From a virus: a DNA stretch of 48,471 nucleotides. Numbering within the stretch: position 1 is the stretch's first letter; each line of letters starts with the position of its first letter. Below the pieces are notes generated by a model, which was not told where the DNA came from, did not search any database, and was given only the letters and a program-made list of their open reading frames with translations. This document shows, in pieces, positions 4,043 through 45,014 of this stretch. The stretch is taken from positions 1-48,471 of IMG/VR virus record IMGVR_UViG_3300014913_000019. One strand, given 5' to 3'. The position numbers and the translations under genes were made by a program.

Positions 4043-4393
4043 ATGGGTCAATACTTCCTAATAGTTAATTTATCAAAACATGAATATCTTCATCCGCACA
4101 GGCTGGGATCTAGCGCCAAGCTCTACGAGTTATGCACTGATCCAAGGATGGGAGTGCTGATTTACCTCTTGAGGAAGAGCGATGACCTCGGAGGAGGAGA
4201 CATACCGAACTTCTCGAACTTTCCCAACGCAGGAAGATGGGCTGGCGATGCGATAGTGGTTGTTGGAGACTACGATTCAAGTGACTTCTACTTCTACGTC
4301 AAGAACCACTTTAAGGAGATAACCAATTTGATCAAAGACGAGTATAACAAGTTCGTTGAAGATGAGAAGTATAAGATTGGAAAGGAGGGATAA
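4043..4393 (+). CDS. Conserved hypothetical phage/archaeal protein (MGQYFLIVNL family)
   Basis: 116 residues; ATG two bases after the preceding stop. It starts MGQYFLIVNLSKHEYLHPHR and contains RWAGDAIVVVGDYDSSDFY; this pattern (opening with MGQYF, then a Trp-Ala-Gly-Asp strand and GDY) is a recurrent conserved hypothetical seen in phages and prophages. No catalytic role is established. Its presence supports the viral nature of this region. Confidence 0.65.
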   Translation: MGQYFLIVNLSKHEYLHPHRLGSSAKLYELCTDPRMGVLIYLLRKSDDLGGGDIPNFSNFPNAGRWAGDAIVVVGDYDSSDFYFYVKNHFKEITNLIKDEYNKFVEDEKYKIGKEG

Positions 4394-4395
4394 GA

Positions 4396-4623
4396 ATGTA
4401 TATCAGGATATTCGTCTGGAAGGAAGACGACTGGGAGATCAAAGCGGGATATGTCTGCAGTCCGAAGAAAGCCGAGAGGGTTCATAAAATACTCGAATCC
4501 GATCTAAACGACGGTCTGATACTCTGGTTCAGGGGCTTTACACTGCACGGCTACAACATAGACCCAATAGACTTACCGAACATTCAAATAAGAGACGGAA
4601 GACTTGTACTGGGGAGGAAGTAG
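4396..4623 (+). CDS. Small hypothetical protein
   Basis: 75 residues; ATG after AAGGAGGGATAAG. It begins with a hydrophobic strand (MYIRIFVWKEDDWEI) and is likely an alpha/beta fold. No family recognised. It sits between the MGQYF protein and three zinc-ribbon genes in one tight operon. Confidence 0.55.
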   Translation: MYIRIFVWKEDDWEIKAGYVCSPKKAERVHKILESDLNDGLILWFRGFTLHGYNIDPIDLPNIQIRDGRLVLGRK

Positions 4624-4624
4624 C

Positions 4625-4843
4625 ATGAAATGTCCAAACTGCGGAGAGGAGATAACGAGGATAATCGTGGAGAGCACAGAGCTGACTTGGATAAAGGAGG
4701 TCTACGAGGAGACGGAAGACGGTTTATTTAAGTATGCCCACTTAGAAGACGAGGATACCGTCGATTCAGAGATCGAGCAAATACTCTGCCCCAAGTGCGG
4801 TAAGCCGATAGATCCCGACTTGATAGAATTTAAGAGGAGATGA
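4625..4843 (+). CDS. Zinc-ribbon protein 1
   Basis: 72 residues; ATG at 4625 after GGGAGGAAG. Two zinc knuckles, CPNCGEE at residues 3-6 and CPKCGKP near residue 59, flank an acidic middle, so one four-Cys zinc site is expected. It heads a run of three zinc-ribbon genes. Such proteins often contact nucleic acid or other proteins; the specific role is unknown. Confidence 0.65.
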   Translation: MKCPNCGEEITRIIVESTELTWIKEVYEETEDGLFKYAHLEDEDTVDSEIEQILCPKCGKPIDPDLIEFKRR

Positions 4844-4844
4844 A

Positions 4845-5081
4845 ATGCCTAAGTGCCCGAAGTGCGGTAAAGAGATAGACCATCTGGTTTATCAGGCGTA
4901 TGAGCTGGTAACGGCAACGGCGCTCCTGACTCCGGCTGACATAATAGACTACATAAGCTGGGAATCGCATGGAATAACGAGAGACTTACCTGAGTATAAG
5001 TGCCCGGAGTGTGGTGCTACTCTCTTCAATAAGGAAAAGGACGCCGAAGCGTTCCTAAAAGGAGAAAATAAGGATGCCTAA
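4845..5081 (+). CDS. Zinc-ribbon protein 2
   Basis: 78 residues, one base after the previous stop. CPKCGKEIDHLVYQA at the start and CPECGATLF near residue 58 form a four-Cys site. It is a clear paralog of the next gene: both share the IDxLxY...SHG...YKCPECG pattern and end in a DAExFLxGExKD helix. Confidence 0.7.
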   Translation: MPKCPKCGKEIDHLVYQAYELVTATALLTPADIIDYISWESHGITRDLPEYKCPECGATLFNKEKDAEAFLKGENKDA

Positions 5082-6213: not shown

Positions 6214-7236
6214 ATGGATGGGCAGTTAAGAGACCAATTAATTGAGTGTTTTAGGGAGAAGGGAGACTGGACAGTAAGCGAGCTTCTCGAACGGCTTCAA
6301 GTCCCTCCTCAGGAGCTTCTGAACCAGCTTTCGATTCTGAGAAGTACGGGTCAGATAAAGAAAGTGGGGCGCAATACGTGGGTTGCTGTGAACATACCCG
6401 GTAAGTCAAGCGAAGAAGAGAACCCGCTCATACCGAAGAACGTCATCTATGATGACTGGCAGGGCATAGTGTCCAGACTTCTCAAGTGCTACAAGCTTGG
6501 ATTGAACGTGCTTCTCATCGGTCCAGCCGGTACAGGCAAGACCGAGGCTGTGCGCAAGGTAGCCGAGATCCTCAAGAAGCCTCTTAGGATCATTCCGTGT
6601 TCTCTTAGAACGAGAGAGCATCACATAATAGGCAGGCTCGATACGGATGAAAATGGCAACCTGTACTTCAAGAAGGGACCACTCGTCCTGAGCATGGAGG
6701 AAGGAGGCATCTGCTACCTCGACGAGCTGAATATCATGGAGCCCGATGCACTGGTGAGGGTTGACGAGGCGCTGGATCAGAGAAAGGAGATAAACGTAGA
6801 GGGTCAGACGTTCAGGGCGAAAGAAGGATGGTGGGTGGTGGCGAGTATAAATCCGCTCGACAAGCTCCATCTGGGCACGAAGACGCTTCCCTCTCAGATC
6901 ATATCGAGATTCCCGGTCAAGCTGAGGCTCGCTTACCCAGACGTCTCCACCGAGTACAACATAGTTAAGCTCCACGTACCTGAAATAGCGAAACACTCGT
7001 CTAGGATGATCGAGTTAATTAAAACAGTTCAGTTCTTGAGAACCACTGATTTACCCTATGTTCCAACTATTAGGGAGAGCATAGCGTTAGCCAAGCTGAT
7101 AGCTAGCGACGTCAAGCCCTTCGAGGCGGTTAAGATGGTTCTGATAGACGTTTATGCTCAGTGGGGTGAAGTCGTCATCCATCAGGCTACCGAATTAATT
7201 GAAAGCAAGATAGGGAAATTGGAGGTGTTCGCTTGA
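6214..7236 (+). CDS. MoxR-family AAA+ ATPase with N-terminal winged helix
   Basis: 340 residues. Residues 1-60 form a winged-helix-like domain (WTVSELLERLQVPPQELL). The AAA+ core follows: Walker A GPAGTGKT at 103-110, Walker B CYLDELN (D170, E171), and arginines at the SRFPVKL segment. The sequence type is MoxR/CbbQ/NorQ, ATPases that work with VWA-domain partners to remodel or insert cofactors into protein complexes. The VWA partner is two genes downstream in the same operon. The archaeal virus ATV also carries MoxR and VWA proteins, tied to its tail development; a chaperone role here is inference. Confidence 0.85.
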   Translation: MDGQLRDQLIECFREKGDWTVSELLERLQVPPQELLNQLSILRSTGQIKKVGRNTWVAVNIPGKSSEEENPLIPKNVIYDDWQGIVSRLLKCYKLGLNVLLIGPAGTGKTEAVRKVAEILKKPLRIIPCSLRTREHHIIGRLDTDENGNLYFKKGPLVLSMEEGGICYLDELNIMEPDALVRVDEALDQRKEINVEGQTFRAKEGWWVVASINPLDKLHLGTKTLPSQIISRFPVKLRLAYPDVSTEYNIVKLHVPEIAKHSSRMIELIKTVQFLRTTDLPYVPTIRESIALAKLIASDVKPFEAVKMVLIDVYAQWGEVVIHQATELIESKIGKLEVFA

Positions 7237-7490
7237 GCGATCCGATAGAGGAGTCCATAGCACTGACGCTTACGGAATCCGTCGGAGAGGAGATAACAGT
7301 AGTGGCGATGAAGAGCAGGAGGCAGAAATCTCTACCTTATTCAAGACTTCCAAGCGGTAAGATAGTCCTCTTCGAGGAGCGTGATCCATTCTCCTACAGA
7401 ATAAAGCCCGGAGACGTGGTCGACTGCGTTATTAAGATCGTCAAACCGAGCTACATAATAGTTAAACCAATTAGGATAAGGAGGCGCTGA
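7233..7490 (+). CDS. TRAM/OB-like small protein
   Basis: 85 residues; starts TTG at 7233, overlapping the MoxR stop (TTGAGCGATC). The pattern VGEEITVVAMKSR...GKIVLFEE...KPGDVVDCVIKIVKPSYIIVKPI is that of TRAM or small OB-fold RNA-binding domains (basic strand, Gly-x-Val-Val, then a paired strand). It is bracketed by the MoxR and VWA genes and so may be part of that complex or a nucleic-acid-binding adaptor. Confidence 0.6.
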   Translation: MSDPIEESIALTLTESVGEEITVVAMKSRRQKSLPYSRLPSGKIVLFEERDPFSYRIKPGDVVDCVIKIVKPSYIIVKPIRIRRR

Positions 7491-7491
7491 T

Positions 7492-9093
7492 ATGGTCAAG
7501 CTGGTCGATCCGGATGAAGTCCTGAGCTTCTTAGCGAGGGCGTGGAGCGAAGACAAGAAGACGCTGATAAGGCGAGATAAGTGGTTCTTCGCCTCCATCG
7601 AAGATCGCATCATATTCCTTCCGAGCTACTTTCAAAAGCTCCCCATGGAAAAACACGTAAACTTGGCGAACATAAGGAGATGGAGGTTCTACAGGTTCTC
7701 GGCGTGGCACGAGGCACAGCACATACGCTTCAGCCCTTCCAAATGGGAGATCGCTCCGAAGATAGAGAAGAGGCTTGAGAAGATGGGATTTGACGTTAAG
7801 AGCTCTCTTGTAGAAGCTCTGCTGGGCGTCTTCGAAGATTATAGGATCGAGAAGCTCGGCCTCAGAGATTATAAATACGAAGAGGAAAAGAAGTTTGTGG
7901 ATGAGATCGGGAAAGTAGCCTCGGAAAAGGCGCTTGAGAAGATAGCGAGAGAATGGGACATATACAGCGCGGTCTTGACTGGTTACCTCCTCTTCGATGC
8001 TAATATACCGAACACTGTAGCTGTAAATCCAGCCTTTCTCCAAGCCCTCGATGAAGTCAAGGAGAACATGCTGAAGATAGAGACCGTCCAAGATCTGGAG
8101 GATGCAGTCGTCAAGAGCTATCCTCTTCTGCACGAATATTGGCCTGACTACATAACGTTTCCAGATGCCAGAGGCATTCGCCTCATAGGAGCCACTCTCA
8201 TCTTCGAGGGCAACGTCAAGCTAAATACTAAGATCCCGGAAAAGATAAAAGAGGAGTTCAAAGCTATGATGAAATCCATTCAGGAGTTCAACGAGGAGAT
8301 GAAGAATTTACAGAAGCTCGCATCTTCACTCGGAGGCAAAGTGCAGACCAATTTAGGCGATTGGAATGAGATCTACGATCCCGTGAGGACATACGCAGAG
8401 ATACTCAAGAACCAGCTGACGAAGTGGAAGGTGGGATGGGTCGAGCACCTGAGCCATGTTGGAGATGACATAGAGCCCGAGTCTTACCTCCTCTCTAGAT
8501 ACTACGATTCATACGACAAGCCGAAGTTCCTGATAGACGAGGAACAGCTCAGTCAGAAAGCTGACTTATTACTGCTCGTGGACATGTCGGGTTCGATAGA
8601 CCAGCAACTTGAGCTCTACAAGCAGAGCTTAGCGGTGATAACCTCTGCACTCGACTACGTTGGCACGAGGTTCTCCCTATTCACATTCTCAGGCAAGACG
8701 ATATCGGTTATCAAGGACTTATCAACTCCATTCAACATTCACACGAAGGAGAGAATAGCAGGTCTTGAGGCAACTGCAGGCACTCCTCTCGGCTATATCC
8801 TCAGAGTGTTGAACGAGAAATACCTCGATAATATCGAAAGGATAGTCGTGATAACGGATGGATTCCCTGACAACCCCCAACTCGCCATGCACTTCATAGA
8901 GGAAATAAGAGACAGGGGCAAGAGACTCGGGGTTATACTCCTTCAGAGCGAGGAGATATCTAGTTTAATCGGTTTCGAAATTTATAGAGAGTTTGAATCG
9001 CTCCTGTCGAGAACTCCAAACAGCTATATTCATGTCGGGAGCGTGAAGGAGCTCCCCTTACAGTTCTTCAGGCTCCTCATGTATGTGAGGTGA
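7492..9093 (+). CDS. VWA-domain protein, CobT/CoxE-like, partner of the MoxR ATPase
   Basis: 533 residues. The N-terminal part carries WHEAQH (H73, E74, H77) followed about 40 residues on by a VFEDYRIEKLG segment, an arrangement seen in CobT-like proteins where a zinc-peptidase-like domain precedes VWA. The C-terminal ~190 residues are a VWA domain with an intact MIDAS start, VDMSGS (D364, S366, S368), a GTPLG threonine, and a VVITDG aspartate. MoxR-VWA pairs act together as metal-dependent chaperones. The middle (about 230-300) is helical. Five genes into the regulated forward unit it is likely made with the replication proteins. Confidence 0.8.
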   Translation: MVKLVDPDEVLSFLARAWSEDKKTLIRRDKWFFASIEDRIIFLPSYFQKLPMEKHVNLANIRRWRFYRFSAWHEAQHIRFSPSKWEIAPKIEKRLEKMGFDVKSSLVEALLGVFEDYRIEKLGLRDYKYEEEKKFVDEIGKVASEKALEKIAREWDIYSAVLTGYLLFDANIPNTVAVNPAFLQALDEVKENMLKIETVQDLEDAVVKSYPLLHEYWPDYITFPDARGIRLIGATLIFEGNVKLNTKIPEKIKEEFKAMMKSIQEFNEEMKNLQKLASSLGGKVQTNLGDWNEIYDPVRTYAEILKNQLTKWKVGWVEHLSHVGDDIEPESYLLSRYYDSYDKPKFLIDEEQLSQKADLLLLVDMSGSIDQQLELYKQSLAVITSALDYVGTRFSLFTFSGKTISVIKDLSTPFNIHTKERIAGLEATAGTPLGYILRVLNEKYLDNIERIVVITDGFPDNPQLAMHFIEEIRDRGKRLGVILLQSEEISSLIGFEIYREFESLLSRTPNSYIHVGSVKELPLQFFRLLMYVR

Positions 9094-9974: not shown

Positions 9975-10208
9975 ATGGGAGAATTAACCCTGATGAAGTG
10001 CAAGAGTCAGGTCGAGGAGTGGATCGTAAAGGAAAAAGATGGTCTTGGTCGTCTCTATTACGTCCACTACGCAGAGGACAAAGACGGGAAGAAGAAGGTA
10101 ACGGCGATCAAGTGGGCGAGCTGTGATCGGGAGCTGATCGCGACCAATTTCGACATTAGAGCCATGATTCAAATAATTGAGAAAGGAGGCTACAAGCTTA
10201 AAGGCTGA
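9975..10208 (+). CDS. Small hypothetical protein
   Basis: 77 residues; ATG after GGAGGCGAGAAG. Likely beta-rich (YYVHYAEDKDGKKKVTAIKWASC) with a C-terminal helix. No family recognised. It precedes the putative zinc protein and recombinase genes. Confidence 0.55.
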   Translation: MGELTLMKCKSQVEEWIVKEKDGLGRLYYVHYAEDKDGKKKVTAIKWASCDRELIATNFDIRAMIQIIEKGGYKLKG

Positions 10209-10584
10209 GAAAAAGATAGTGGATAAGATTGTTGAAAATCTCCAATACAGGCTTGGAGATCTCACCAAGGAGGTCGAGTGCTACATCAAGCGCCTCAAGA
10301 ATGCTAAAACAGTCGAGGAGGTAATGATGCTCAAGCAGAGGATCTTGGAAGCTTGGGTGAGCTCGATACCCCTCTGGAGCGATACGTGCTACTTCTGCAT
10401 TAAGTACAAAACCGGACTCGTCTATCCGGACTGCGAGCGCTGTCAGTATGCCGAGCACCACGGTATATACGTCGAGAAGGGCTCTTCCTGGCACAAGATC
10501 AACTCCCTGAGATGGAAGCTCTACGACCTGATAGTTGATGAGTACTACGGAGGCGAGGAGTATGAGCAGGAGGCCGATAAGTAA
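10177..10584 (+). CDS. Helical protein with a Cys/His cluster
   Basis: Up to 135 residues. The start is unclear: TTG 10177 has no ribosome site, GTG 10219 lies far from AAAGGAGG (10182-10189), and the best-spaced in-frame codon (10198) is TTA. A helical N-terminus is followed by CYFCIKYKTG...CERCQYAEHH, two C-x-x-C pairs likely to bind zinc. The end overlaps the start of the Sak4 gene (ATG at 10562). Function unknown; context suggests DNA metabolism. Confidence 0.6.
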   Translation: MRKEATSLKAEKKIVDKIVENLQYRLGDLTKEVECYIKRLKNAKTVEEVMMLKQRILEAWVSSIPLWSDTCYFCIKYKTGLVYPDCERCQYAEHHGIYVEKGSSWHKINSLRWKLYDLIVDEYYGGEEYEQEADK

Positions 10585-10693
10585 GCCCTCATTTGTGCCT
10601 GATACCGTACCGCAGGAGACGGTGTTCTCGATCGAGGTAAAGTCGCAAGGGTTAAATATCGGAATCTCCATCTCTCTAATGGTGAGTATATGA
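10562..10693 (+). CDS. Sak4-type ATPase, 5' part (interrupted gene)
   Basis: 43 residues, MSRRPISKPSFVP... to a TGA that overlaps the ATG of the homing endonuclease. The stretch KSQGLNIGIS has the form of the first strand of a RecA-like core and would run straight into GEPDQGKTHF, the Walker A loop encoded after the endonuclease gene. Sak4 proteins (phage annealing ATPases of the RecA fold) have exactly this order: short N-terminus, hydrophobic strand, Walker A, then a LDTE strand. I therefore read this as the first piece of one gene split by the insertion. Confidence 0.65.
   Translation: MSRRPISKPSFVPDTVPQETVFSIEVKSQGLNIGISISLMVSI
10651..10658 (+). promoter_or_regulatory. Possible TATA box of the homing endonuclease
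   Basis: GTTAAATATC lies about 32-39 bases before the ATG at 10690, a suitable distance for a leaderless or near-leaderless transcript of the endonuclease gene. Confidence 0.35.
10666..10679 (+). repeat. 5' arm of the 14-bp complementary pair bounding the insertion
   Basis: CTCCATCTCTCTAA is the exact reverse complement of TTAGAGAGATGGAG at 11138-11151. Just outside, GTCGCAAGGG (10642-10651) can pair with CCCTGCGAC (11158-11166) with one bulged base. The long interrupted stem would bring the two halves of the Sak4 gene together in RNA. Confidence 0.65.
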
Positions 10694-11157
10694 GCTTAGA
10701 TATAGCGTATCTCGCGGGGATAATCGACGGAGAAGGTTGCCCTTACTTCAGAGTCCGAAAACACACGAACAACAAATCTTGGCAAGTGTCACTCGTCCTA
10801 GAGCTACAAACGACAAGTCTTGCGATGATGAAGAAGATTCAACAAATCTATATGCAGGAATTTGGGATAAAGAAGGAAATCAGAACGTATCAACCGCCCG
10901 GAAATAGAAAGCCTGTTTACATCCTCAATCTTCATAAAAAATCAGAGCTAAAACGAGTATGTAAAGCGATTGAACCATTCCTAACTACAAAGCGGAGGAA
11001 AATACAGATGCTCTTAAAGATAATAGATTATCTAGAACGAGTAAAGTTCGAACCTCTTCATCAGAAAGGCAAACATGGTGGAGCTGGATCAAGAACTCAT
11101 CGGGACTACGACCTTCTCCGTCGTTGGGAGCGAGAATTTAGAGAGATGGAGGATTAG
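10690..11157 (+). CDS. LAGLIDADG homing endonuclease inserted in the Sak4 gene
   Basis: 155 residues; single LAGLIDADG motif LAGIIDGEG near residue 8, so it should act as a homodimer. A long helical/strand body and a basic C-terminus (RTHRDYDLLRRWEREF) follow. Codon choice looks less biased to the AGG/CTC pattern of its neighbours, fitting recent arrival. It lies exactly between two halves of a P-loop ATPase gene. Homing endonucleases of this family copy themselves into a cut recognition site; their usual hosts are introns or inteins, and archaeal examples occur in bulge-helix-bulge introns. Confidence 0.85.
   Translation: MSLDIAYLAGIIDGEGCPYFRVRKHTNNKSWQVSLVLELQTTSLAMMKKIQQIYMQEFGIKKEIRTYQPPGNRKPVYILNLHKKSELKRVCKAIEPFLTTKRRKIQMLLKIIDYLERVKFEPLHQKGKHGGAGSRTHRDYDLLRRWEREFREMED
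11138..11151 (+). repeat. 3' arm of the 14-bp complementary pair
   Basis: TTAGAGAGATGGAG, inside the last codons of the endonuclease gene, exactly complementary to 10666-10679. The GGAGG part also forms a ribosome site seven bases before a CTG codon at 11160. Confidence 0.65.
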
Positions 11158-11159
11158 CC

Positions 11160-11915
11160 CTGCGACGCCGAATCGGAGAACCCGACCAAGGCAAGACGCA
11201 CTTCAGCGCCACTTTTCCCAAAGCTTTGTTCCTCGATACAGAGCACAAAGCCGACATAGTGTTAAGAAAGATGCCAGAGAAGGGCCATGTGTGGAAGCGA
11301 GTGACGTCGTGGCAGGACATAGAGCTGGGAGTGGAGTGGGCACTGCAACAACCCGATATCAAGACCATAGTCATAGACTCAGGTGGCGACATAAGGGACT
11401 TAGCGCTTGAGGAGTGGAAGAGGAGGACGGGCAAGAAGTCTCCCGTAGCGTACATAGACGGTCAGGCAGTACCCGTGCTCTGGGCTCAGGTTTACGAGAT
11501 AATCGACAACGTAGTGAGGAAAATCCAACTAGCTAGGAAGTATCTTGTAGTAACTTGCAGAACCAAAGATGAGTATATAGCGCATGTGCCCACGGGACGA
11601 AAGATAAGGGACGGCTATAAGAAGTTCCCGTGGAACCTCAGCATGGCAATATGGATTCAGAACGGCATAACAGATCCGAAGACCGGCAAGGTGCACTTCA
11701 AGTTCTACAAGTTCGGCAGGGTGATTAAGAACAACTTCTGGGGAGTAGACGTAAAGAAAGGAGTGACCTACCAGAAGCCCTATCTCTTCGACATATCCTA
11801 CGAGGGGATATGCAACGAGATGCTGAAGCCTTGGGGACCTGTGAAGCTCTCCGAGGTTACCGAGACGATAATCAAGGAGGCCGAGGAGTGGCTGAAAGAG
11901 AAAGAGTTGTTATGA
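11160..11915 (+). CDS. Sak4-type RecA-fold ATPase, main part
   Basis: About 251 residues if read from the CTG at 11160; TTG 11226 is the first ordinary start but lies after the Walker A loop. GEPDQGKTHF (Walker A), LFLDTEHKAD, then TIVIDSGGD (Walker B) and VVTCRTKDEY match phage Sak4/AAA_24 annealing ATPases, which load on single-stranded DNA to promote recombination. The missing first strand is encoded at 10562-10665. The product ends in a helical EAEEWLKEKELL. Whether RNA splicing restores one protein or two pieces are made cannot be settled here. Confidence 0.7.
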   Translation: MRRRIGEPDQGKTHFSATFPKALFLDTEHKADIVLRKMPEKGHVWKRVTSWQDIELGVEWALQQPDIKTIVIDSGGDIRDLALEEWKRRTGKKSPVAYIDGQAVPVLWAQVYEIIDNVVRKIQLARKYLVVTCRTKDEYIAHVPTGRKIRDGYKKFPWNLSMAIWIQNGITDPKTGKVHFKFYKFGRVIKNNFWGVDVKKGVTYQKPYLFDISYEGICNEMLKPWGPVKLSEVTETIIKEAEEWLKEKELL

Positions 11916-13017: not shown

Positions 13018-15007
13018 GAGGAAAGTGATATTCGCCGAGCGCTTCATCCCCTATTTTTTCATGTCCTACGGAGCCCACATCTTCAACCTGATGAACTTCA
13101 GGAGGCACATCTACTTCGAGCACGGGAGAATCCCGGATATGCGGTGCCATCTTCTGTTTGTTGCTCCACCTGGATTCTGCCTCGATCCCAAAACGTCAGT
13201 GATGTTAGCTGATGGCTCTAGAAAACCACTGTCTGAAATCGAAGTCGGAGACGAACTAATGAAAGCTTACAGCAAGAAGAGAAATGTTGTATTAGCGAAG
13301 GTCGAGAGAGTAGCGACAGAAATCTTGGAGATCCAACCTCACGATATTAAGTGTTCGCCAGAGCATCTTATCTTGACCGATAAGGGCTGGAGAAGAGCTG
13401 GCGAACTTAAAGTAGGGGATAGGATGGCAACTTGCTTCACTTACAACGATTTGAGGCTGTTGGGCTTCTGGATAGCTGAAGGTCGCTTTGAAGGTAAAGG
13501 CCCATGGACGCCTACGCTCTCAAATACGGATCAGAAGTTGCTCGCCTCTTATCAGAGAGCTCTAGATGCCTTTGGAGTAAAATTGACTCCAAGAAGTCAT
13601 AACGAATTTGCATGTGTCCAACCGAACTATAAAACTTACCATGAGAACCAATTCGCTAAATTCTTAAGGTATTTAGGCTTTCGAAAAGCAAAGGCACAGG
13701 AGAAATTCATTCCAGAGGAACTCTTCACACTTCCGTGTTTTGCTAAGCGGATGCTATGTCGAGGATTGTGGGATGGCGACGGATGGAAGCACGGATACGC
13801 AACCAGCTCAACGAGATTAGCGAATGATCTTAATCAATTACTAAGAGATCTAAACGTAGAATTTTCCTACTACCCACATGATTATAAGGCAACGAAGCAG
13901 TGCTCGGCGTTCTACATCCATAAGAATTCTTGGGACTTCCTAAAGAGAACTGCAAGATTCGAACCAAGGAAAGCTCTTGGATTCGCCGCGGTTAAATCCA
14001 TTAGAAAGATTAAAGGACCAAGATATCTCATAGACATAACAACTTCGGCTGGCCATTTTGTGGCGAATAATGTTATAGTCCACAATTCAAAGTCCTTCTT
14101 CATGAAGCAGTGCTTCTCCGAGGACTTCGGCATACTCAACACTCCGACGATCAAGACCACGTTTCAGGGCTCGTGCACTGAGGCAGGATTCGTTGGTACC
14201 ATAGAGAAGAACAAGGGAACTCCGATCAAGCGCATGGGCTTAGCAGAGGAGTACAAGGATGGCATAGTTGCGATAGAGGAGTTCACTGCAATAACCAAAG
14301 TCCTTGAGCAGAAGCATTCTCTAACATTTGAAGCCCAGCTCAACTCAGCGCTGTTCGGAGGTCTCGTCAAGAAGAGGCTAGCTTCAGGCAGTATAAGCTA
14401 CAGGACGAGGGTAACGCTCATAGCCGGTACTCAGATAGCGAAGTTCGACATAAGCGGTGGGCTGGGAAGGAGACTGAGCTACATTTATTGGGTGCCCTCT
14501 CCTTCAGACTTTAGAAAATTAGCACAAGCTGTTAGGGAAGGAGAGAACGTTCCGTTGGACAAGCGCTCCTTGGTCGAGTACAGAAACAGGCTAATGGACC
14601 TCCAGAAGTCGCTCGACAGGATAAGGCGTGTGACTTTCTCGGACGACCTCTACGACTTCCTCAGCAGTAAACCGCACTTCGAGATCCTGCTCTACAAGAA
14701 GATGGCTCTGGGGTACAACCTGTTTACGAGGACTATATCTCCGGACTTCGAGGTTACGCTCGATGCGAGGCTGAAAGTCTTACTGAAGCGTGCCATGAAG
14801 TGGAGGGAACAGCTTTTGGCAGACCCAGAGGGAGCTCAGGTCATTGAGATACTGAAGAGGCACGGAGGCCTGATGAGCAAGGAGGATCTACAGACCGAGC
14901 TCCTGCGCTACTCGATAAACTGGGAAACCTCTTCCCGGATTATAGACAAGCTTTTAAGGTTGAGGAAGATAAGGTGGACGAGAGGAGGCAAGCTAGCAGT
15001 TGTGTAA
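12980..15007 (+). CDS. MCM-like AAA+ helicase interrupted by an intein in the P-loop
   Basis: 675 residues from a CTG start at 12980, or 660 from GTG 13025. The segment LTLYDEGLKILSERK before the GTG reads as protein and has AGGGAGGTGG six bases upstream; no ATG/GTG/TTG is available there. Without the intein, LLFVAPPGF joins SKSFFMKQ to form a Walker A (PPGFSKS). Walker B-like GIVAIEEF, a threonine/glutamine sensor (LIAGTQIAKF) and the GGLGRRLSYI arginines follow, and a winged helix (residues about 590-660 from the GTG) closes the protein. This fits MCM-like viral replicative helicases, but an unusual AAA+ family is possible. Confidence 0.75.
   Translation: MTLYDEGLKILSERKVIFAERFIPYFFMSYGAHIFNLMNFRRHIYFEHGRIPDMRCHLLFVAPPGFCLDPKTSVMLADGSRKPLSEIEVGDELMKAYSKKRNVVLAKVERVATEILEIQPHDIKCSPEHLILTDKGWRRAGELKVGDRMATCFTYNDLRLLGFWIAEGRFEGKGPWTPTLSNTDQKLLASYQRALDAFGVKLTPRSHNEFACVQPNYKTYHENQFAKFLRYLGFRKAKAQEKFIPEELFTLPCFAKRMLCRGLWDGDGWKHGYATSSTRLANDLNQLLRDLNVEFSYYPHDYKATKQCSAFYIHKNSWDFLKRTARFEPRKALGFAAVKSIRKIKGPRYLIDITTSAGHFVANNVIVHNSKSFFMKQCFSEDFGILNTPTIKTTFQGSCTEAGFVGTIEKNKGTPIKRMGLAEEYKDGIVAIEEFTAITKVLEQKHSLTFEAQLNSALFGGLVKKRLASGSISYRTRVTLIAGTQIAKFDISGGLGRRLSYIYWVPSPSDFRKLAQAVREGENVPLDKRSLVEYRNRLMDLQKSLDRIRRVTFSDDLYDFLSSKPHFEILLYKKMALGYNLFTRTISPDFEVTLDARLKVLLKRAMKWREQLLADPEGAQVIEILKRHGGLMSKEDLQTELLRYSINWETSSRIIDKLLRLRKIRWTRGGKLAVV
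13178..14086 (+). mobile_element. Intein 1 with LAGLIDADG endonuclease, in the helicase P-loop
   Basis: 303 residues. Splicing block A starts with Cys (CLDPKTSVMLADG), block B holds CSPEHLILT, the endonuclease domain has two LAGLIDADG-type motifs (LLGFWIAEG and CRGLWDGDG), and the C-terminal blocks are YLIDITTSAGHFVANNVIVHN followed by Ser. Cys1, the penultimate His and final Asn, and Ser+1 are all present, so protein splicing should work. Both acidic endonuclease residues are kept, so it may be an active homing element. P-loops are favoured intein sites. Confidence 0.95.
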
Positions 15008-17304: not shown

Positions 17305-17469
17305 TTGCTGAAGGTAAAGAGAAAGACATACACGTTTGAGGAATTCGCCAAAGTCTTAAACCTCGGAGACAGCGCATACCTGCTGTCTATTGACATCCTC
17401 AAGCAGTTTGCCCTCGGATCTGAAGAAGTTCGGAAATACGTTTCAATCGAGTATGTAGTGAGCGAGTGA
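17305..17469 (+). CDS. Small hypothetical protein
   Basis: 54 residues from TTG 17305, or 56 from ATG 17299. AGGAGGT ends one base before the ATG, so the TTG has the correct spacing, as in several other genes here. Sequence LLKVKRKTYTFEEFAKVLNLGD suggests strand then helix. Function unknown. Confidence 0.5.
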   Translation: MLKVKRKTYTFEEFAKVLNLGDSAYLLSIDILKQFALGSEEVRKYVSIEYVVSE

Positions 17470-17475
17470 TATACC

Positions 17476-17664
17476 ATGCTGAAGCTGGCCGTGACCGTGT
17501 GGTTCGCATTCGTACTGTGCGCTGAAGCGGTGAACATGATCTACAGAATGATAACAGAGAAGGATCGAAAGAGCACATGGAAGGAAGATGCACTAGCGAG
17601 CTTCATATCAGCTATGGTGCACGCGGTATTCCTCATCTGGATGCTGATAAGGTGGTGGATTTGA
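17476..17664 (+). CDS. Two-helix small membrane protein
   Basis: 62 residues. Hydrophobic segments at about 3-20 (KLAVTVWFAFVLCAEAV) and 43-60 (FISAMVHAVFLIWMLI) with a charged loop between. Topology is holin-like. The stop overlaps the next start (TTGA). Confidence 0.5.
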   Translation: MLKLAVTVWFAFVLCAEAVNMIYRMITEKDRKSTWKEDALASFISAMVHAVFLIWMLIRWWI

Positions 17665-17828: not shown

Positions 17829-18165
17829 GAAGTACCGGATCACTACCAAAGACCTCGATGTAGAAGTTGAGGCTGAGAGCAGAGAGGGCGCCATACGCAA
17901 CTTCTTCAGACTGCTGAAGGTGTTCTGGCACGAGTGGAAGGACAAGGTAGGACAGATAGCATCGGTGCACGATGAGGGAGAGGAGTACCCGTTCAGATTA
18001 GTTCCGAGCCTCTACAACATGGGTCTGATAGACGAGGAGACAGCCGTGGCAAACCTGCTGAGAGTATTCGAGGAACAGCCAACGCCTGAAGCTGTAAGCG
18101 ATGCTAAAACTATGCTCTGGGCATTAGCTAAGACTGATAGGTGGATGACGGAGGATTTGAAATGA
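17818..18165 (+). CDS. Hypothetical protein
   Basis: 115 residues from ATG 17818, which overlaps the Cys-rich gene. The N-terminal half has a strand-helix pattern (YRITTKDLDVEVEAESREGAIRNFFRLLK) like small phage DUFs; the rest is helical. Function unknown. Confidence 0.55.
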   Translation: MTVKKYRITTKDLDVEVEAESREGAIRNFFRLLKVFWHEWKDKVGQIASVHDEGEEYPFRLVPSLYNMGLIDEETAVANLLRVFEEQPTPEAVSDAKTMLWALAKTDRWMTEDLK

Positions 18166-18674
18166 ACTTAAAAGAGATGCGTGACGAGCTGATCAAGAGG
18201 TGTAAAGCTGGTCCGTCTTCGGATTACCAAGATCTCTGGATAACAATAAACAGTATGCTCAAAGAGTTCGAGACCGAGCTCAGAGTGAAGCTCGCATCGC
18301 TTGAAATCAAAGCAGAGACTCTTCCTTTGACTAAGGAGGAAGAGATCTCAGCGCTTGCTCAAATCCAGCTTCTTAGCGAGATTTTAGGAGATGAAGTCTT
18401 CCGAGATCTTCAGCTGTGCATCTCAGAGCAACACAAAGCTCACAGCGAAGTGTTGGATCTCCTGACCAGAGCGTGGCTGAGATCCATGGACTCGGGAGAT
18501 TATTACTTGATAGGAGAGGAACTTGAGAAACTTATACTAAAGCTAGAACCGCCTTATTTGCCATGTATAAGGTGTGGCAGGAAGATGTCTTGGCTCAGAT
18601 ATCACGCAAGACAGGGCATGTGTATGAAGTGCGCTAAAGAAGTATCCAAGGAGGCGAACGAGGAGTGCCAATAA
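18162..18674 (+). CDS. Helical protein with C-terminal zinc ribbon
   Basis: 170 residues from ATG 18162, overlapping the previous stop (AATGA). About 130 residues of helices are followed by CIRCGRKMSWLRYHARQGMCMKC, one zinc ribbon. Mixed helical/zinc structure suggests a nucleic-acid or complex adaptor role; no family recognised. Confidence 0.6.
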   Translation: MNLKEMRDELIKRCKAGPSSDYQDLWITINSMLKEFETELRVKLASLEIKAETLPLTKEEEISALAQIQLLSEILGDEVFRDLQLCISEQHKAHSEVLDLLTRAWLRSMDSGDYYLIGEELEKLILKLEPPYLPCIRCGRKMSWLRYHARQGMCMKCAKEVSKEANEECQ

Positions 18675-33762: not shown

Positions 33763-35304
33763 TTGCCTTGGGTATCGGAGAAGCCTCCTGCGATAATCGA
33801 GAAGTCAACGAGATCCGTTATTCCTTCTTACCACCTGAGTCCTGAGCCTCAGCTCCGCATCCCCAAGTGGAACTACTCCACGATCTATCAGGTGGCTGAG
33901 GAATCCTGGCTCATTCAGTCAATTGTAAGAGTGATAACTCAGGAGGTTGTGAGACCTGGCTGGAGGAGAGAACCTCGCTTTAGGAGGAAGTGCGAGGAGT
34001 GCGGTGCTGAGTTTCAAGAGACGGTTGAAGAGTGCCCGATATGCGGTGGCAAGACCAGACCTCCAAGTCAGGCTCAGGCTAGGCTCTTCGACAGGCTCAT
34101 TCAGCATCCTAATCCTGACTACTCGTTCGGCGATCTGATGAGAAGCATAGTCTATCACGACGTTATAGCCGACGACTGGTACGTCTCGATACTTCCAGCT
34201 AAGTTCAAGGATAAGGACGGCAACGTGGTCATAAGACCGGCTGAGATACGGGTTGAAGATCCGAGGTACTGGGTGCCCATAGCTGATGAGTACGGGAGAT
34301 TGGGAGTCGACGAGTACTACTGCCCCGTCTGCTACACTCCGGACGAGTACTACACTGAGCCGGGCAACTGTCCCAAGTGCGGTCTTCCCCTTGAGCGAAC
34401 TGCTTATGTCCAAGTCGTTAATGGAGAGATAACTGCCAGATCCTCAGAGAACTGGATGATACACGGATCGACTGGTCGAGTGCTTCCTGAGCTCCACGGA
34501 AGACCTAAGATCATCGCCGTATGGGATCTGATACACACAATAAAGGTGATGGATGAGTATAACTTGGATGCGTACAGTGAAGGGAAGCTTGGAGGCATAC
34601 TCAACTTCCCGGGCTACTCTCAGGAGCAGATAAAAGCTCTTCAAGCTGAGATACAGGCTGATATCAAGAGGAGAGAAGTGCAGGACGTTCGAGGCTTGCT
34701 GAGGACCAAGAAGACGATAAGGACTCTGATGCTCGGGTCTGAACAGCCCATTCAGTTCATAAGGGCCATGCCTCCATTAGAAGACATGCAGTCACTCGAC
34801 TTCTACATGGTCTACATACAGGCAGTATGCGCCGTATTCGGTGTTCAGCCCTTAGCGATCTCGTTTGCCACCAAGTCGGTCAAGAGCTCTTCAGTAGCAC
34901 CCTACATTCGCCTTGAAGTGCAGAATAGGACGATAAAGGAGATACAGCGCGACAAAGAGGAGATGTTCAACAACTTCCTATTACCTCGCTTTGGCATCAC
35001 AGACTGGCTCTTCAAGTTCAACCCGATAGAGCAGAAGGACGAGCTGAGGGAGGCTCAAATAAGGCAGATAGACGCGAATACTTTGGTGACCCTGAGGAAT
35101 GCAGGGTTCGATGCCAAGTTCAACGAATACGGCAAGCTCGTGATACCCACAGAACCAACTCTGTCTCAGGAGGAGATGCCGAAGAAGAAGAGACCTAAAG
35201 GCAAGACTCCTCAGAAGCCCAAAGTCAGCGATGCATCTGAAAGAGTTATAGCTGGGACAACCGTAGAGCGCTGGCCACACGGTACACGAGGTGAGCCTCA
35301 GTAA
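33763..35304 (+). CDS. Portal protein with two inserted zinc ribbons
   Basis: 513 residues from TTG 33763 after AGGAGGAGTAG. The core fits the SPP1/HK97-type portals (SWLIQSIVRVITQEVVRPGW, SFGDLMRSIVYHDVIADDWYV, VFGVQPLAISF, then a long helix QNRTIKEIQRDKEEMFNNF). Unusually, two zinc-ribbon motifs are inserted: CEECGAEFQETVEECPICG near residue 79 and CPVCYTPDEYYTEPGNCPKCG near residue 190. They may stabilise the protein at high temperature or grip terminase. The portal is the ring through which DNA enters and leaves. Confidence 0.85.
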   Translation: MPWVSEKPPAIIEKSTRSVIPSYHLSPEPQLRIPKWNYSTIYQVAEESWLIQSIVRVITQEVVRPGWRREPRFRRKCEECGAEFQETVEECPICGGKTRPPSQAQARLFDRLIQHPNPDYSFGDLMRSIVYHDVIADDWYVSILPAKFKDKDGNVVIRPAEIRVEDPRYWVPIADEYGRLGVDEYYCPVCYTPDEYYTEPGNCPKCGLPLERTAYVQVVNGEITARSSENWMIHGSTGRVLPELHGRPKIIAVWDLIHTIKVMDEYNLDAYSEGKLGGILNFPGYSQEQIKALQAEIQADIKRREVQDVRGLLRTKKTIRTLMLGSEQPIQFIRAMPPLEDMQSLDFYMVYIQAVCAVFGVQPLAISFATKSVKSSSVAPYIRLEVQNRTIKEIQRDKEEMFNNFLLPRFGITDWLFKFNPIEQKDELREAQIRQIDANTLVTLRNAGFDAKFNEYGKLVIPTEPTLSQEEMPKKKRPKGKTPQKPKVSDASERVIAGTTVERWPHGTRGEPQ

Positions 35305-38300
35305 TGAGCCTCCTGTACAAAATACAAAACATCGAGTCCTACGATCCTAAGAAGCTTAGAACTAAAGTTTTACAAGACGACTACCGCATAGCGTTCGCTT
35401 GGTACTCGACTAAAAAGCAGGGTAAGAAGCTTAGGCATACATATAAACAAATTATTGATCTAGCTAGTAAGATAGCTGAAGAGCTTCACAGGCGAGGCAT
35501 AGAGTTCCACCCGGAGAGGTACAACGAGCACGGCAAGGAGCTCTTCCGCAAGATAGCGAGGAGGTTAGCGAGAAAGGGCATCGTTCTCAAAGCGCTGGAT
35601 GGTCTCTACCTCGTCGAACCGCATGCGAAGCTGATATGGAAAGGAATGAAGACCTTGATCGTCAAGGCGAGGAGGTATGAGAACCTCCTCTTCTACCCCA
35701 TGTACCTCTGTGGTGACAAGGTGTATGGAATAATCACTCTAACAGGCATGACTGAGGTTGACGAGAACGGCTTTCAGAACCTGAAGAAGCACCATTTGGT
35801 AACCGATAAGGAAGCTAGGGAGTGGTGGGGCGAGAGGAACAGGTACTATGTTTACAAGTTCTCGTTCAAGAGGTTCGACAAGCCGAAGGAATACGTTAGA
35901 CCTCAGGGAGCTCAGGTGAAGATAGACAACGTTCAGATCAAGAAGATGAAGAAGCCCTTCTCTCATCCGCTCGGTAAGGATCGACAAGTTTCCATATTTT
36001 TGGAGAACCTTCCTCCTCACAAGGTCTACGTAGAGCCGTTTGCTGGTGGAGCTTCGCTCTTCTGGAGAAAAGAGCCTGTCGCTAAGGAGGTGCTGAACGA
36101 TATAGACGAGCGATATGTATTCCTCCTCAGGTTCTTGAAGAATGCATCGGATGAACAGTTGGAGAAGCTCAAGAATATGGACTACATGCCGTCTGAGGAG
36201 AAGTTCGAGAGGCTCAAGAAGCTCGATCCGGATGATGACGTGGAGAGGGCGTACAAGCTCATCTATCTGATAATACACTCGTACGGAGGCAATATGGAGG
36301 ACTACGCGCACAGGAAGAAACTGAGGAAGTGCGGATACATTACCAACCCCGAAGACTACAGGGAGCGCCTTAAGAATACCATCATTACTAACAAAGACTT
36401 CGAGGAGGTGATAAGAGAATACGACTCGCCTGACACGTTCTTCTACCTCGATCCTCCATACATGGACGAGGATATCAAGGAAGATCCCGAAGCTTTCAAG
36501 AAGAGGCTGTTCGAAGCATGCAAGAGACTTAAGGGCAAATTTTTGCTGAGCTTCAGCGATGATCCCCTCATCAGGAAGCTGTTCAAAGATGCAGGCTTCG
36601 AAGTGAAGAGCTTTCTCGCCAAGAGGCCTTTAAGCAAAAACTATCCGATTAAGAGAGAGCTATTGATAGCTAACTATCCAATTAAGATACCGAAGCTCAA
36701 GAAGTCTGATGTGATGCTTAAGTTCTTGGGCACAAGAGGATATGTCGACGAGAAGTCTGAACTACACAACAAGCGGGCTTCTTTGCTGATAGACGACGGC
36801 AAGACGAAGCTTTTAATAGACTGGGGAGACGTGAACGGAGAGCTTCCTGACTGCGATGCTATAATCATCACACATGCACACCCCGACCACCTCTTCGGCC
36901 TGAAGAACAAAGAGATAGACGTCCCAGTGTTCATCACGGATGCGACGACACACTCCGAGTACTACAGAGAAGGAGTCTACAAGTTCAGCAAGACGGTGTT
37001 CAAGCGCAGGAGTGCGTTTAGAGTTGGGGATATCGAAATAATAAGCGTTCCTGTACTGCACTCGACCAAAGCTCCCAATATCGCTCTATTCATCAATGTG
37101 GGTGGATACAGGATCTGCTACGCATCCGATGTCCTGAGCATAAAGAAGGAGCACAGGGATAAGTTCCTGAGAGGATGCGACCTGTACATCGGCGATGGAT
37201 CCACGCTTAGAGAAGACGGTCTTGTGAGGTGGGACGAGAAGAGGGATGAAGCGATAGGACACGCTGGAATACCTAGGCAGGTAAAATGGTGTGAAGAGGC
37301 GGGTGTGAAGCGGATAATCTTCACGCACTTCGGATCTGAGCCTATAAAGCTCGGCAGAAAGCTTGAGGAGAAGCTCGCTGAACTAGGTGCTGAGATGGCG
37401 TATGATGGATGGGTCACAAACGTATTAGTCAGCAAAGCTGTTAACCTAGAAGAGATAGACGATGAATATGTCGAGAAGCTCAGTGATAAGAAGCTCAGAG
37501 AGCTGTATGAGAAGCTCCATAAGATATATGAGCAAGAAGGGAGAGTCACTGAACCTCTTTTGAACGCCGAGATATTCGTTGAGAACGAGATGAAGAAGCG
37601 AGGCATGGAGAGAAACATAAACGACAGGCTGAGTCAGGAGGCGAGGTTCTGGGTTCAGGAGTATCCGCCTTGGGAGAAGGAAAAGAAGATCACGCTCCAG
37701 GAAGTGATAGACTCATTCCCGGATGTCATCAAGCTACCGGCTGACGTACCGGCCATCTACATAGTTGGAGGTCTTGCTAATCGAGGATGGGTCACTCACC
37801 ACGACATAGACATTCGAGTAGCTTCAGACAAATACTTACCAAAAGTTAAACGAGCTCTAATACACGCATGCACGAGGAACGACATACGGGAGAAGCTTCA
37901 GTTCATATTCGACTCAAGAGGTGGGATAGGCCTCTCGATACCGCTCTACATACCGGTTGAGGATGGTCTGAAGAAGGACGAAGAGCTGAGGTTGGGCAAG
38001 CCCTCTCAGCCTCAGAAGCCAGCTACGGGATGGCAGAAGAACGAGTTTTGGAAGATAGACGAGGCGTGGACAAAGTGGGGAGCTCCTAGAATTGATAGAG
38101 GCATCATGGTTCAGCCCAAGTACGACGGCATGAGCTTTCAGATACATGTGAAAGACGGAAAGCCAATTGGGTTCTTCACCGAAGACCAGCTTAGGAACAG
38201 AATTGAGGCGTTTAAGAAGTCTTCGGCTGAGCTCCCGAAGCTTTTGAAAGCTAAGGATGCGATCTTAGTAGCCGAAATGGTCGAGTACTCCGATGAAGTT

Positions 38301-40262
38301 GAGTATCCTGAGAACGACAAGCTCTGGACGAAGTACAAGCAGATTCCGAGAGAGGATCTGGTTAAATGGATCGCGGCTAGGCCTTCTTCTCTTGATGACA
38401 AACGTGTGATATTCCATGTGCATGACCTGCTCTATCTTGACGGCGAGAAATGGTATGATAAACCGGCGATCGAGCGGTATGAGAAGCTGAAGGAGATACT
38501 GAAAGAGGGCAAGCACTTCCACGTCGTTGAGTCCAAGACAGCTCACAACATGAGGGAGTTCTTCGAGTATGCAAATTGGGCGAGGTACTTCCCGAACTCT
38601 GAAGGTGCTGTCTTCAAGACCACTGATTCGATCTACAAGATCAGATATGATAGAGCTTCGAGGAATAAAGACTGGTGCTTAACCGGTGGAAGCTATGTCC
38701 TAACAGAAAACGGATTTGAGCGAGTAGCTTATCTTAAACCGGGCGTTCTGGTCTTCGCAAAGGATGGCAAACTTCACAGAGTGCTTAGAATTGCAAGGCG
38801 GAAAATCGAACCTAACGAACAGCTATTCGAAGTCAAGGATTACCATGGATTAACCGTCAGATTGACTTCAGAACACGAAGTACTAACAAGGGAATGCGGT
38901 TGGCAAGAATGCTCAGCCTCGTTCGGATTAACTCCGGTATTTCCGCGATTGAAGATTCCTAAGGAAAAACCGCCTGAAGAGCTTTGTTTATCATGGCACG
39001 GTTACGAAAAAATCATAAAATGTACTAAAGAGTTTTGGAAGCTTGTTGGTTTCTGGGTTGCCGAAGGTTCGCTAGGGAATAACCGAAACAAGAATTACAG
39101 ACGAGGTGAATTCGAATTCTCCCAGAAAGACGATCAAATATTCTCTGAGCTCGCTGATTTGGCAGACAGAATACTGAAGACAAAGGGCAAAAGGTATTGC
39201 TATGATGGAGTAAACCGGTACATCGTCTGGGACAAGCCCTTCTGTGATTGGTTGAGTAAGAACTTCTTAGATAAGAACGATGATAAGACCCTTCCTTGGT
39301 TTATCGCATACCTCGATGATGAGAAGTTCGAGGCGTTCTGGGAAGGTCTTTGGCTCGGAGATCGAAAAGCTCCAGATCGAGATGCGATCTCGACCTCCGA
39401 TAACTCTCTCGCTGGGAGATTATTCGCAATTCTGAATGCTCGCGGTGAGGAAGTCGGTATTCACAAACAGAGAACCAATAGAAAGGACAATTTCACAATC
39501 ACAAGATTGAAACGACCCACTCATAAAATATCGGTCAAAAGGCTTTCAACAGACCATCAGGATTTGGTTTACGATATTGAAGTGGAGAATGAAGATTCGT
39601 TCTTAACTGGAAATCTCGTGTTGCATAACAGTAAGCTCAAGAACCTCAAGGAGCTCGACGTGATGGTCCTAAAGCCTCACCTCGTCGAAGGTACCAAAGA
39701 CGTGTTCACGTGGCAGGGAGTAGTAGGTCCGATTCCTGAGAAAGACCTGGACAAGTACAGAGAGCGAGACATTATGGAATTCAAGGGCAAGAAGTACCTG
39801 AGGATTGGAACGTGCTACAATGTGAAGGGCAAGAAGCCTGAGGGTAGCATCCTGACCGTGATGCCAATAAGAATAGAGAAGAACACAACTGAAGACGGCA
39901 AAATATACTACACTTGGATGTTCCCGAAGGCTGGGCTGTGGAGACCAGAGAAGAAGGAGCCTGATCCAATCGATGTGGTCGAGAAGCTCTCGAAGCTTGG
40001 GACGAGACCGTTCGAGAAAGCTAAGAGCGAGAAGGTGATAAAGATAGAGCTTCCCCTGTGCCCTGAGAAGTACGCGTTCAACGAGGAAATTTGTCCTCTC
40101 ATTAACAGAGTTAAGATACTCGTGGATGGAGTCTGGAAGTCTGACAAGCCGAAGGTGAAGCTTAAGGTTCAGGAGCTGAAGTATCCGATAGACTGCAAGC
40201 TGGCTAACTATTATAGATGCAGGAGAGTGAAGCCGTACTATTACGGGTGGCGAGAGGAATGA
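35304..40262 (+). CDS. Giant fusion: PUA/ASCH-like, Dam methylase, MBL hydrolase, nucleotidyltransferase, DNA ligase (with intein)
   Basis: 1652 residues (1334 after intein removal); its ATG overlaps the portal stop. In order: a helical and ASCH/PUA-like start (1-220, VEPHAKLIWKGMKTLIV); a D12-class adenine methylase (FAGGAS near 245-250, DPPY 383-386); a metallo-beta-lactamase fold hydrolase (HAHPDH 524-529); a pol-beta-type nucleotidyltransferase (GG at 822, D834, D836); an ATP-dependent ligase adenylation domain (KYDG with K939, FHVHDLLYLDG, EGAVFK from E1100, motif V after the intein KLKNLKELD), an OB fold, and a Cys-containing tail. All visible active sites are intact. It sits between portal and protease genes, so DNA-end joining linked to packaging or injection is a reasonable inference. 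Confidence 0.85.
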   Translation: MSLLYKIQNIESYDPKKLRTKVLQDDYRIAFAWYSTKKQGKKLRHTYKQIIDLASKIAEELHRRGIEFHPERYNEHGKELFRKIARRLARKGIVLKALDGLYLVEPHAKLIWKGMKTLIVKARRYENLLFYPMYLCGDKVYGIITLTGMTEVDENGFQNLKKHHLVTDKEAREWWGERNRYYVYKFSFKRFDKPKEYVRPQGAQVKIDNVQIKKMKKPFSHPLGKDRQVSIFLENLPPHKVYVEPFAGGASLFWRKEPVAKEVLNDIDERYVFLLRFLKNASDEQLEKLKNMDYMPSEEKFERLKKLDPDDDVERAYKLIYLIIHSYGGNMEDYAHRKKLRKCGYITNPEDYRERLKNTIITNKDFEEVIREYDSPDTFFYLDPPYMDEDIKEDPEAFKKRLFEACKRLKGKFLLSFSDDPLIRKLFKDAGFEVKSFLAKRPLSKNYPIKRELLIANYPIKIPKLKKSDVMLKFLGTRGYVDEKSELHNKRASLLIDDGKTKLLIDWGDVNGELPDCDAIIITHAHPDHLFGLKNKEIDVPVFITDATTHSEYYREGVYKFSKTVFKRRSAFRVGDIEIISVPVLHSTKAPNIALFINVGGYRICYASDVLSIKKEHRDKFLRGCDLYIGDGSTLREDGLVRWDEKRDEAIGHAGIPRQVKWCEEAGVKRIIFTHFGSEPIKLGRKLEEKLAELGAEMAYDGWVTNVLVSKAVNLEEIDDEYVEKLSDKKLRELYEKLHKIYEQEGRVTEPLLNAEIFVENEMKKRGMERNINDRLSQEARFWVQEYPPWEKEKKITLQEVIDSFPDVIKLPADVPAIYIVGGLANRGWVTHHDIDIRVASDKYLPKVKRALIHACTRNDIREKLQFIFDSRGGIGLSIPLYIPVEDGLKKDEELRLGKPSQPQKPATGWQKNEFWKIDEAWTKWGAPRIDRGIMVQPKYDGMSFQIHVKDGKPIGFFTEDQLRNRIEAFKKSSAELPKLLKAKDAILVAEMVEYSDEVEYPENDKLWTKYKQIPREDLVKWIAARPSSLDDKRVIFHVHDLLYLDGEKWYDKPAIERYEKLKEILKEGKHFHVVESKTAHNMREFFEYANWARYFPNSEGAVFKTTDSIYKIRYDRASRNKDWCLTGGSYVLTENGFERVAYLKPGVLVFAKDGKLHRVLRIARRKIEPNEQLFEVKDYHGLTVRLTSEHEVLTRECGWQECSASFGLTPVFPRLKIPKEKPPEELCLSWHGYEKIIKCTKEFWKLVGFWVAEGSLGNNRNKNYRRGEFEFSQKDDQIFSELADLADRILKTKGKRYCYDGVNRYIVWDKPFCDWLSKNFLDKNDDKTLPWFIAYLDDEKFEAFWEGLWLGDRKAPDRDAISTSDNSLAGRLFAILNARGEEVGIHKQRTNRKDNFTITRLKRPTHKISVKRLSTDHQDLVYDIEVENEDSFLTGNLVLHNSKLKNLKELDVMVLKPHLVEGTKDVFTWQGVVGPIPEKDLDKYRERDIMEFKGKKYLRIGTCYNVKGKKPEGSILTVMPIRIEKNTTEDGKIYYTWMFPKAGLWRPEKKEPDPIDVVEKLSKLGTRPFEKAKSEKVIKIELPLCPEKYAFNEEICPLINRVKILVDGVWKSDKPKVKLKVQELKYPIDCKLANYYRCRRVKPYYYGWREE
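38676..39629 (+). mobile_element. Intein 2 with LAGLIDADG endonuclease, in ligase motif V
   Basis: 318 residues. Block A CLTGGSYVLTENG (Cys1), block B LTSEHEVLT, LAGLIDADG-type motifs LVGFWVAEG and WEGLWLGDR, and C-terminal DLVYDIEVENEDSFLTGNLVLHN followed by Ser. Removing it joins NKDW to SKLKNLKEL, restoring the conserved ligase motif V lysines. Splicing residues are complete. It differs strongly in sequence from intein 1, so the two entered separately. Confidence 0.95.
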
Positions 40263-44782: not shown

Positions 44783-44795
44783 GCGCCTATTTGAT

Positions 44796-44812
44796 CTCCC
44801 TTATTTTTTTGT
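44796..44812 (+). terminator. T-rich terminator after the capsid gene
   Basis: CTCCCTTATTTTTTTGTTTC, with a run of seven T, 14-30 bases after the capsid stop. It would limit read-through after the most highly needed product. It also overlaps the last codons of the reverse-strand HTH gene. Confidence 0.5.
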
Positions 44813-44980: not shown

Positions 44981-45004
44981 TTTGTTAATAATTTTGTTAG
45001 TAGG

Positions 45005-45014
45005 GTTTAAATAG
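45005..45014 (+). promoter_or_regulatory. TATA box for the decoration-protein gene
   Basis: GTTTAAATAG, about 32-41 bases before ATG 45046 and just after the HTH gene's start. This gives the genes after the capsid their own transcript, possibly under the control of the HTH protein. Confidence 0.6.

Follow-up and report, generated by a model that had tools for sequence, protein, structure and literature searches.

Bulge-helix-bulge (BHB) introns that encode homing endonucleases are known from archaeal rRNA. Splicing in archaeal protein genes is known mainly from the cbf5 introns of Crenarchaeota, which are short (16 to 44 nt) and carry no open reading frame (ORF), and for which a cut between the second and third bulge base of the pre-mRNAs matched the exon borders (PMC2738675). 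Writing of cbf5, the same authors described a protein-gene intron that itself carries a coding sequence as the missing link to the mobile introns of rRNA (PMC2738675). Putative introns of 12 bp in an archaeal virus genome, reported by Peng et al. and cited in PMC2738675, are mentioned there without proof of splicing. A literature search that covered chiefly papers outside subscription returned no viral protein gene with a BHB intron that encodes an endonuclease.

The window analyzed here, a virus record taken over its whole length of 48,471 bp, carries the genes of a head-tail virus, including terminase large subunit, portal, head maturation protease, and tape measure. Positions 10562 to 11915 hold a Sak4-like recombinase gene (phrog_124, E=6e-15; AAA_24, E=1e-12), and the Pfam and profile matches bear out the original prediction that a LAGLIDADG ORF splits it (Table 1). 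The insertion sits one codon before the Walker A motif. Joined across it, the protein scores 57.8 bits against phrog_124 and 50.6 bits against AAA_24, with GEPDQGKT as Walker A. Behind the insert, the reading frame starts at Walker A (GEPDQGKTHF) and, as had been claimed, lacks a usual start: no in-frame ATG, GTG, or TTG lies ahead of the motif, and the first one in that frame, TTG 11226, is past the P-loop, so that the P-loop would be lost. Our search for Sak4 relatives in phages found none, and an AlphaFold model of the Sak4 of a sister virus, L004, was too poor for use (pLDDT 44).

Table 1. Coordinates of the interrupted Sak4 gene and its insert in the window; a caret marks a predicted cut
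Feature	Position	Strand	Remark
Sak4 exon 1	10562..10640	+	MSRRPISKPSFVPDTVPQETVFSIEV plus the first nucleotide of the Ile codon if cut after 10640; 24/26 residues as in the uninterrupted L004 Sak4
Outer helix, exon side	10624..10634	+	GUUCUC 10624-10629 with GAGAAC 11176-11181; CG 10633-10634 with CG 11174-11175
Central helix, 5' strand AGGU	10635..10638	+	G-C, G-C, U.G, and one A.G mismatch with GCCG 11167-11170
Bulge 1, AA^A	10639..10641	+	Predicted 5' splice site after 10640
532-nt insertion, putative mobile BHB-type intron	10641..11172	+	2-nt ambiguity: 10639-11170, 10640-11171, or 10641-11172
Terminal helix of putative intron, 5' strand GUCGCAAGGG	10642..10651	+	Pairs with CCCUGCGAC 11158-11166
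Inner 14-bp helix of putative intron, 5' strand	10666..10679	+	Exact reverse complement at 11138-11151
Homing endonuclease of 155 aa with one LAGLIDADG motif (LAGIIDGEG)	10690..11157	+	Pfam; GGTGAG upstream
Inner 14-bp helix of putative intron, 3' strand	11138..11151	+	Falls in the final codons of the endonuclease ORF
Terminal helix of putative intron, 3' strand CCCUGCGAC	11158..11166	+	Pairs with 10642-10651
Central helix, 3' strand GCCG	11167..11170	+	Pairs with AGGU 10635-10638
Bulge 2, AA^U	11171..11173	+	Predicted 3' splice site after 11172
Sak4 exon 2	11173..11915	+	Remaining Ile codon nucleotides, Walker A (GEPDQGKTHF), and everything downstream; 99% amino acid identity to L004

Three relatives carry an uninterrupted Sak4 gene at the identical codon position: L002 and L003, both from IMG/VR, and L004, which lies in contig QMZE01000003 of an Archaeoglobales MAG and encodes a Sak4 protein 98% identical to that of the window. 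All three read FSIEV-IGEPDQGKTHF, placing the insertion after FSIEV and before IGEPDQGKT. The L004 contig is collinear with the whole window, and the flanks of the insert are 88 to 90% identical on both sides. In BLASTN, the match ends at 10640 and restarts at 11171 with no gap on the contig side (26823/26822), indicating that the insert is 532 nt long. It begins right after GAGGTA(A) and ends immediately before ATCGGAGAA. Since two A bases are repeated at its edges, three adjacent junction phases are possible (10638/11171, 10639/11172, and 10640/11173); within this range (10638 to 10640 / 11171 to 11173), the empty sites of L002, L003, and L004 define a precise insertion.

Comparison with uninterrupted homologs, which the original prediction had proposed as a check, confirmed the interruption and at the same time moved its boundaries. 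The 5' end lies about 30 nt upstream of the boundary first assumed, according to the relatives and to the BLAST break at 10640/11171. The 43-codon ORF ahead of the endonuclease does begin with the true Sak4 N-terminus, which accounts for its first 26 codons, but GLNIGIS, initially read as the first Sak4 strand, is not exon: the uninterrupted relatives assign it to the insert, where it merely resembles a P-loop strand. The corresponding junction, 10669/11175 (GLNIGIS^GEP), is ruled out by the empty sites despite an equal Pfam score (51.0 bits versus 50.6 bits for the true junction). With scores so alike, only the comparison with relatives could decide between the two.

The two ends of the insert are complementary to each other. 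Both pairings noticed earlier are present, namely, 14 bp formed by CTCCATCTCTCTAA and its exact complement and an outer pair, GTCGCAAGGG/CCCTGCGAC, with nine pairs and one bulged A. The 14-bp pair does not bound the insertion, as had been thought, but is an inner helix, and the outer pair likewise has both strands within the insert; together they make one stem that closes it. The duplex energy of this end-to-end pairing is -41.6 kcal/mol versus a shuffle mean of -21.3 kcal/mol, and 1 of 3000 dinucleotide shuffles was as good. In a reduced folding model, the pair 10642-11166 has a probability of 0.997 at 37°C and 0.69 at 85°C.

At the corrected boundaries, the 3-4-3 motif that could not be fitted in the original prediction appears, with three of its four central pairs and with cuts at the comparative junction. 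Only phase 10640/11173 yields the helices, and it does so in canonical geometry, with 3 pairs in H1, 3/4 in H2, and 6 contiguous pairs in H3; the outer helix consists of CG/CG, a 3-nt bulge, and GUUCUC/GAGAAC. Two 3-nt bulges, AAA and AAU, sit on opposing strands with helices on either side, and removal of the sequence between the cuts restores the frame, GAGGUAA^UCGGAG giving FSIEVIGEPDQGKT as in the relatives. In this phase, the stem begins 1 nt inside the 5' end of the insert and stops 6 nt inside its 3' end, the offsets that a 3-4-3 BHB demands (1 bulge base at one end, 4 helix and 2 bulge bases at the other). Neither 10638/11171 nor 10639/11172 gave a set of three helices, and the mirror geometry, in which the central helix is formed by the 5' end of the intron and exon 2, failed at every allowed phase. 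Random positions equaled or surpassed the fit of phase 10640/11173 in 44 of 400,000 trials in which three phases and both mirror geometries were allowed. When the junction was left free, a scan of 8000 position pairs returned 39 BHB-like fits, which are thus not rare in this stretch, and the BHB argument therefore rests on the empty site. The BHB fold lies above the predicted minimum of the reduced model by 2.0 kcal/mol at 37°C and by about 1.4 kcal/mol at 60 to 85°C; in the minimum-energy fold, GAU and AUC of the exons are joined to each other, which masks the 3' site. The same scoring applied to the crystal substrate of Archaeoglobus fulgidus EndA (sequence from PMC12397907) returned the same arrangement, and in that substrate the cut falls between the second and third bulge base (PMC12397907). 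The evidence thus supports the earlier candidate, a BHB intron in a gene for a viral protein, and does so more strongly with boundaries taken from empty sites.

Inverted repeats at the ends of an insert seen in a single record could also point to an insertion element or to an assembly chimera, neither of them connected with splicing. We consider this highly improbable: the insert has no transposase and its sole gene is the LAGLIDADG endonuclease, any target duplication is at most 2 nt, the repeats end unequally far (1 and 6 nt) from the junction, and both flanks are collinear with the sister virus at 88 to 90% identity.

The endonuclease ORF is intact and matches PF14528 (E=1.6e-7) and PF00961 (E=1.9e-6); intact LAGLIDADG ORF and empty alleles in relatives together are the pattern of a mobile intron. 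Its best PDB sequence matches are I-CreI and I-MsoI, over residues 5 to 122, with which it shares a single-motif, dimer-type fold, and with its single LAGIIDGEG motif it presumably acts as a homodimer. One intron-bearing sequence is known: no other carrier of the intron or of the endonuclease was found in viral contigs, phages, or sister viruses, and among 392 genomes of the phylum, the only match to the endonuclease was weak (29%, a two-domain homing endonuclease in L006). In a comparison with host rRNA introns, the only candidate homing endonuclease locus of the MAG (L025) lies outside rRNA.

I-CreI and I-MsoI come from organellar group I introns, whereas no group I intron is recognizable in the Sak4 insert. 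Group I introns require a U before the intron and a G at its end. Phase 10638/11171 would supply both, and I-CreI-type endonucleases are common in such introns, so a self-splicing group I or group II intron whose catalytic core is overlapped by the endonuclease ORF has to be weighed. An Rfam scan of 10400 to 11500 with E values up to 5, however, detected neither an Intron_gpI core nor a group II domain V. The ORF leaves only about 50 nt of the insert on its upstream side and 14 nt on its downstream side, and the first 170 nt contain no internal guide for the end of exon 1; the sole 5- to 6-base match, at +178, falls within the ORF. LAGLIDADG genes do occur in group I introns of archaeal rRNA, but all 39 archaeal group I introns in the same source sit in rRNA genes (PMC6125680). 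Self-splicing thus strikes us as a far-fetched explanation. Two further candidates were rejected outright. The insert is out of frame and hence not an intein: its length of 532 nt is not divisible by 3, in-frame stops are present, and the ORF has no PF14890/Hint match. Ribosomal bypassing of the T4 gene 60 type fails as well, because the take-off codon GUA does not match the CGA before the landing site.

Could the endonuclease gene simply have been inserted, without splicing, leaving Sak4 either lost or made in two pieces? The second piece would then start from CTG 11160 behind GGAGG (11148 to 11152), which lies 7 nt ahead of that codon; the frame is open from CTG through Walker A, and no spliced RNA is known. 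Such a C-terminal piece, however, would be without FSIEV, the strand that precedes the P-loop and that all four relatives share unchanged, and a free-standing endonuclease gene leaves the long complementary ends at the 1- and 6-nt offsets of a BHB unexplained. Sak4 is also under strong purifying selection, with few amino acid changes against many silent ones (dN/dS of 0.024 between the window and L004), which fits a gene still yielding its product, although this value gives no date for the insertion, as a recently broken gene would show the same. We therefore regard insertion without splicing as unlikely.

The sequences show the exact insertion, the empty sites, the endonuclease family, the pairing of the ends, and their geometry; cutting, ligation, homing, and coupled translation are proposed. 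As far as sequence can tell, the Sak4 insert is probably a mobile intron, removed from the transcript by the tRNA-splicing endonuclease of the host. Sak4 alleles that lack the intron, like the one in the sister virus L004, would be cut by the I-CreI-like endonuclease, and repair of the cut allele would copy the intron in. In the transcript, the intron ends would form the long stem and, together with the exons, a near-canonical BHB. Cleavage by the host enzyme would fall after 10640 (AA^A) and after 11172 (AA^U), and a host RNA ligase would join the exons, restoring FSIEV-IGEPDQGKTHF and a full Sak4 protein of 273 aa. The predicted spliced junction is GAGGTAATCGGAG, the predicted spliced 26-mer is GTTCTCGATCGAGGTAATCGGAGAAC, and the circular intron is predicted to close at GCCGAA^AGTCGC. 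An unspliced transcript would instead give a 43-aa peptide. The TGA that closes the unspliced exon 1 frame (10691 to 10693) overlaps the endonuclease start, ATG 10690 (ATGA), and the unspliced message could in this way couple endonuclease expression to that of the peptide.

The virus of the window is probably linked to Archaeoglobi. Of 59 genomes from the class to which the sister virus MAG belongs, 53 have EndA, mostly as frames of about 305 to 330 aa, which we take to be the size of the alpha'2 type; a search of the L004 MAG itself, which is perhaps incomplete, gave no hit. A restriction to canonical BHB motifs is reported for EndA of the A. fulgidus (alpha'2) type (PMC12397907); the bulge lengths predicted here are canonical, but the imperfect central helix would count against cutting by this enzyme.

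How does the Sak4 insert compare with described introns? The LAGLIDADG introns of archaeal 16S and 23S rRNA share with it the BHB-type ends, a long closing stem, an endonuclease inside, and a sporadic distribution against empty sites; the differences are that the host gene here is a viral protein gene, that the central helix has one mismatch, and that splicing is inferred. With the cbf5 introns of Crenarchaeota (PMC2738675), it has in common a BHB in a protein gene, the same cut position at the exon border, and an insertion at a catalytic motif. Those introns, however, are found in hosts whose EndA is of the relaxed (alpha-beta)2 type, whereas the Sak4 insert is 532 nt long, has an endonuclease ORF, and belongs to a virus probably linked to Archaeoglobi with EndA of alpha'2 size. 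The introns of Peng et al., as far as they are described in the citing paper, were likewise proposed in protein genes of an archaeal virus but are 12 bp long, in frame, and without an ORF. We lean toward regarding the Sak4 insert as the first endonuclease-encoding, mobile, EndA-spliced intron in a viral protein-coding gene, in which host tRNA splicing would be needed for the recombinase and the choice to splice would set recombinase against endonuclease. If so, this viral example would supply the missing intron type, a viral mRNA would depend on the tRNA-splicing enzyme of the host, and viruses would be suggested as carriers of archaeal mobile introns.

Other LAGLIDADG elements are present in these viruses. 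An AAA-like gene of the window (13025 to 15007) contains a LAGLIDADG-containing intein at 13177 to 14089, in its P-loop region (GFC...HN^SKS, the caret here marking the insertion point), that is absent at the same place in the L003 and L004 viruses. P-loop inteins of archaeal viral ATPases, to which this one belongs, resemble the Sak4 insert in placing LAGLIDADG at a conserved nucleotide-binding site and in being absent from sister viruses but are in-frame protein elements, whereas the Sak4 insert does not keep the frame and contains internal stops. A second intein, at 38680 to 39632, lies within a 1652-aa ORF (35304 to 40262) and is absent from the L002 and L003 viruses and present in the L004 virus. 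This ORF also matches D12 adenine methyltransferase, metallo-beta-lactamase, and ATP-dependent DNA ligase domains, an unusual fusion, and the next ORF (40217 to 42250) matches the LigD 3'-phosphoesterase domain. The LigD-type ORF of the L004 and L003 viruses has an intein-like insert of about 966 bp (L007, 7265 to 8230; L015 contig, 44710 to 45679) that is absent at position 40445 of the window, indicating that these viruses differ in several LAGLIDADG elements.

Smaller differences and neighboring genes were also recorded. Near 5335 to 5360 of L003, a 17-nt tandem duplication (acgagataatagactca) shifts the Sak4 frame, reflecting a broken gene or an assembly error. Upstream of Sak4, a small cysteine-containing ORF (10177 to 10584) is single in the window and in L004 and forms a tandem pair in L002 and L003 (about 4190 to 4945). 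Two short segments of the window (17314 to 17476 and 18157 to 18435) are missing from the L004 virus, apparently through gain or loss of small genes. At 6214 to 9093, a MoxR-like AAA ATPase adjoins a VWA-domain protein, a chaperone-type pair.
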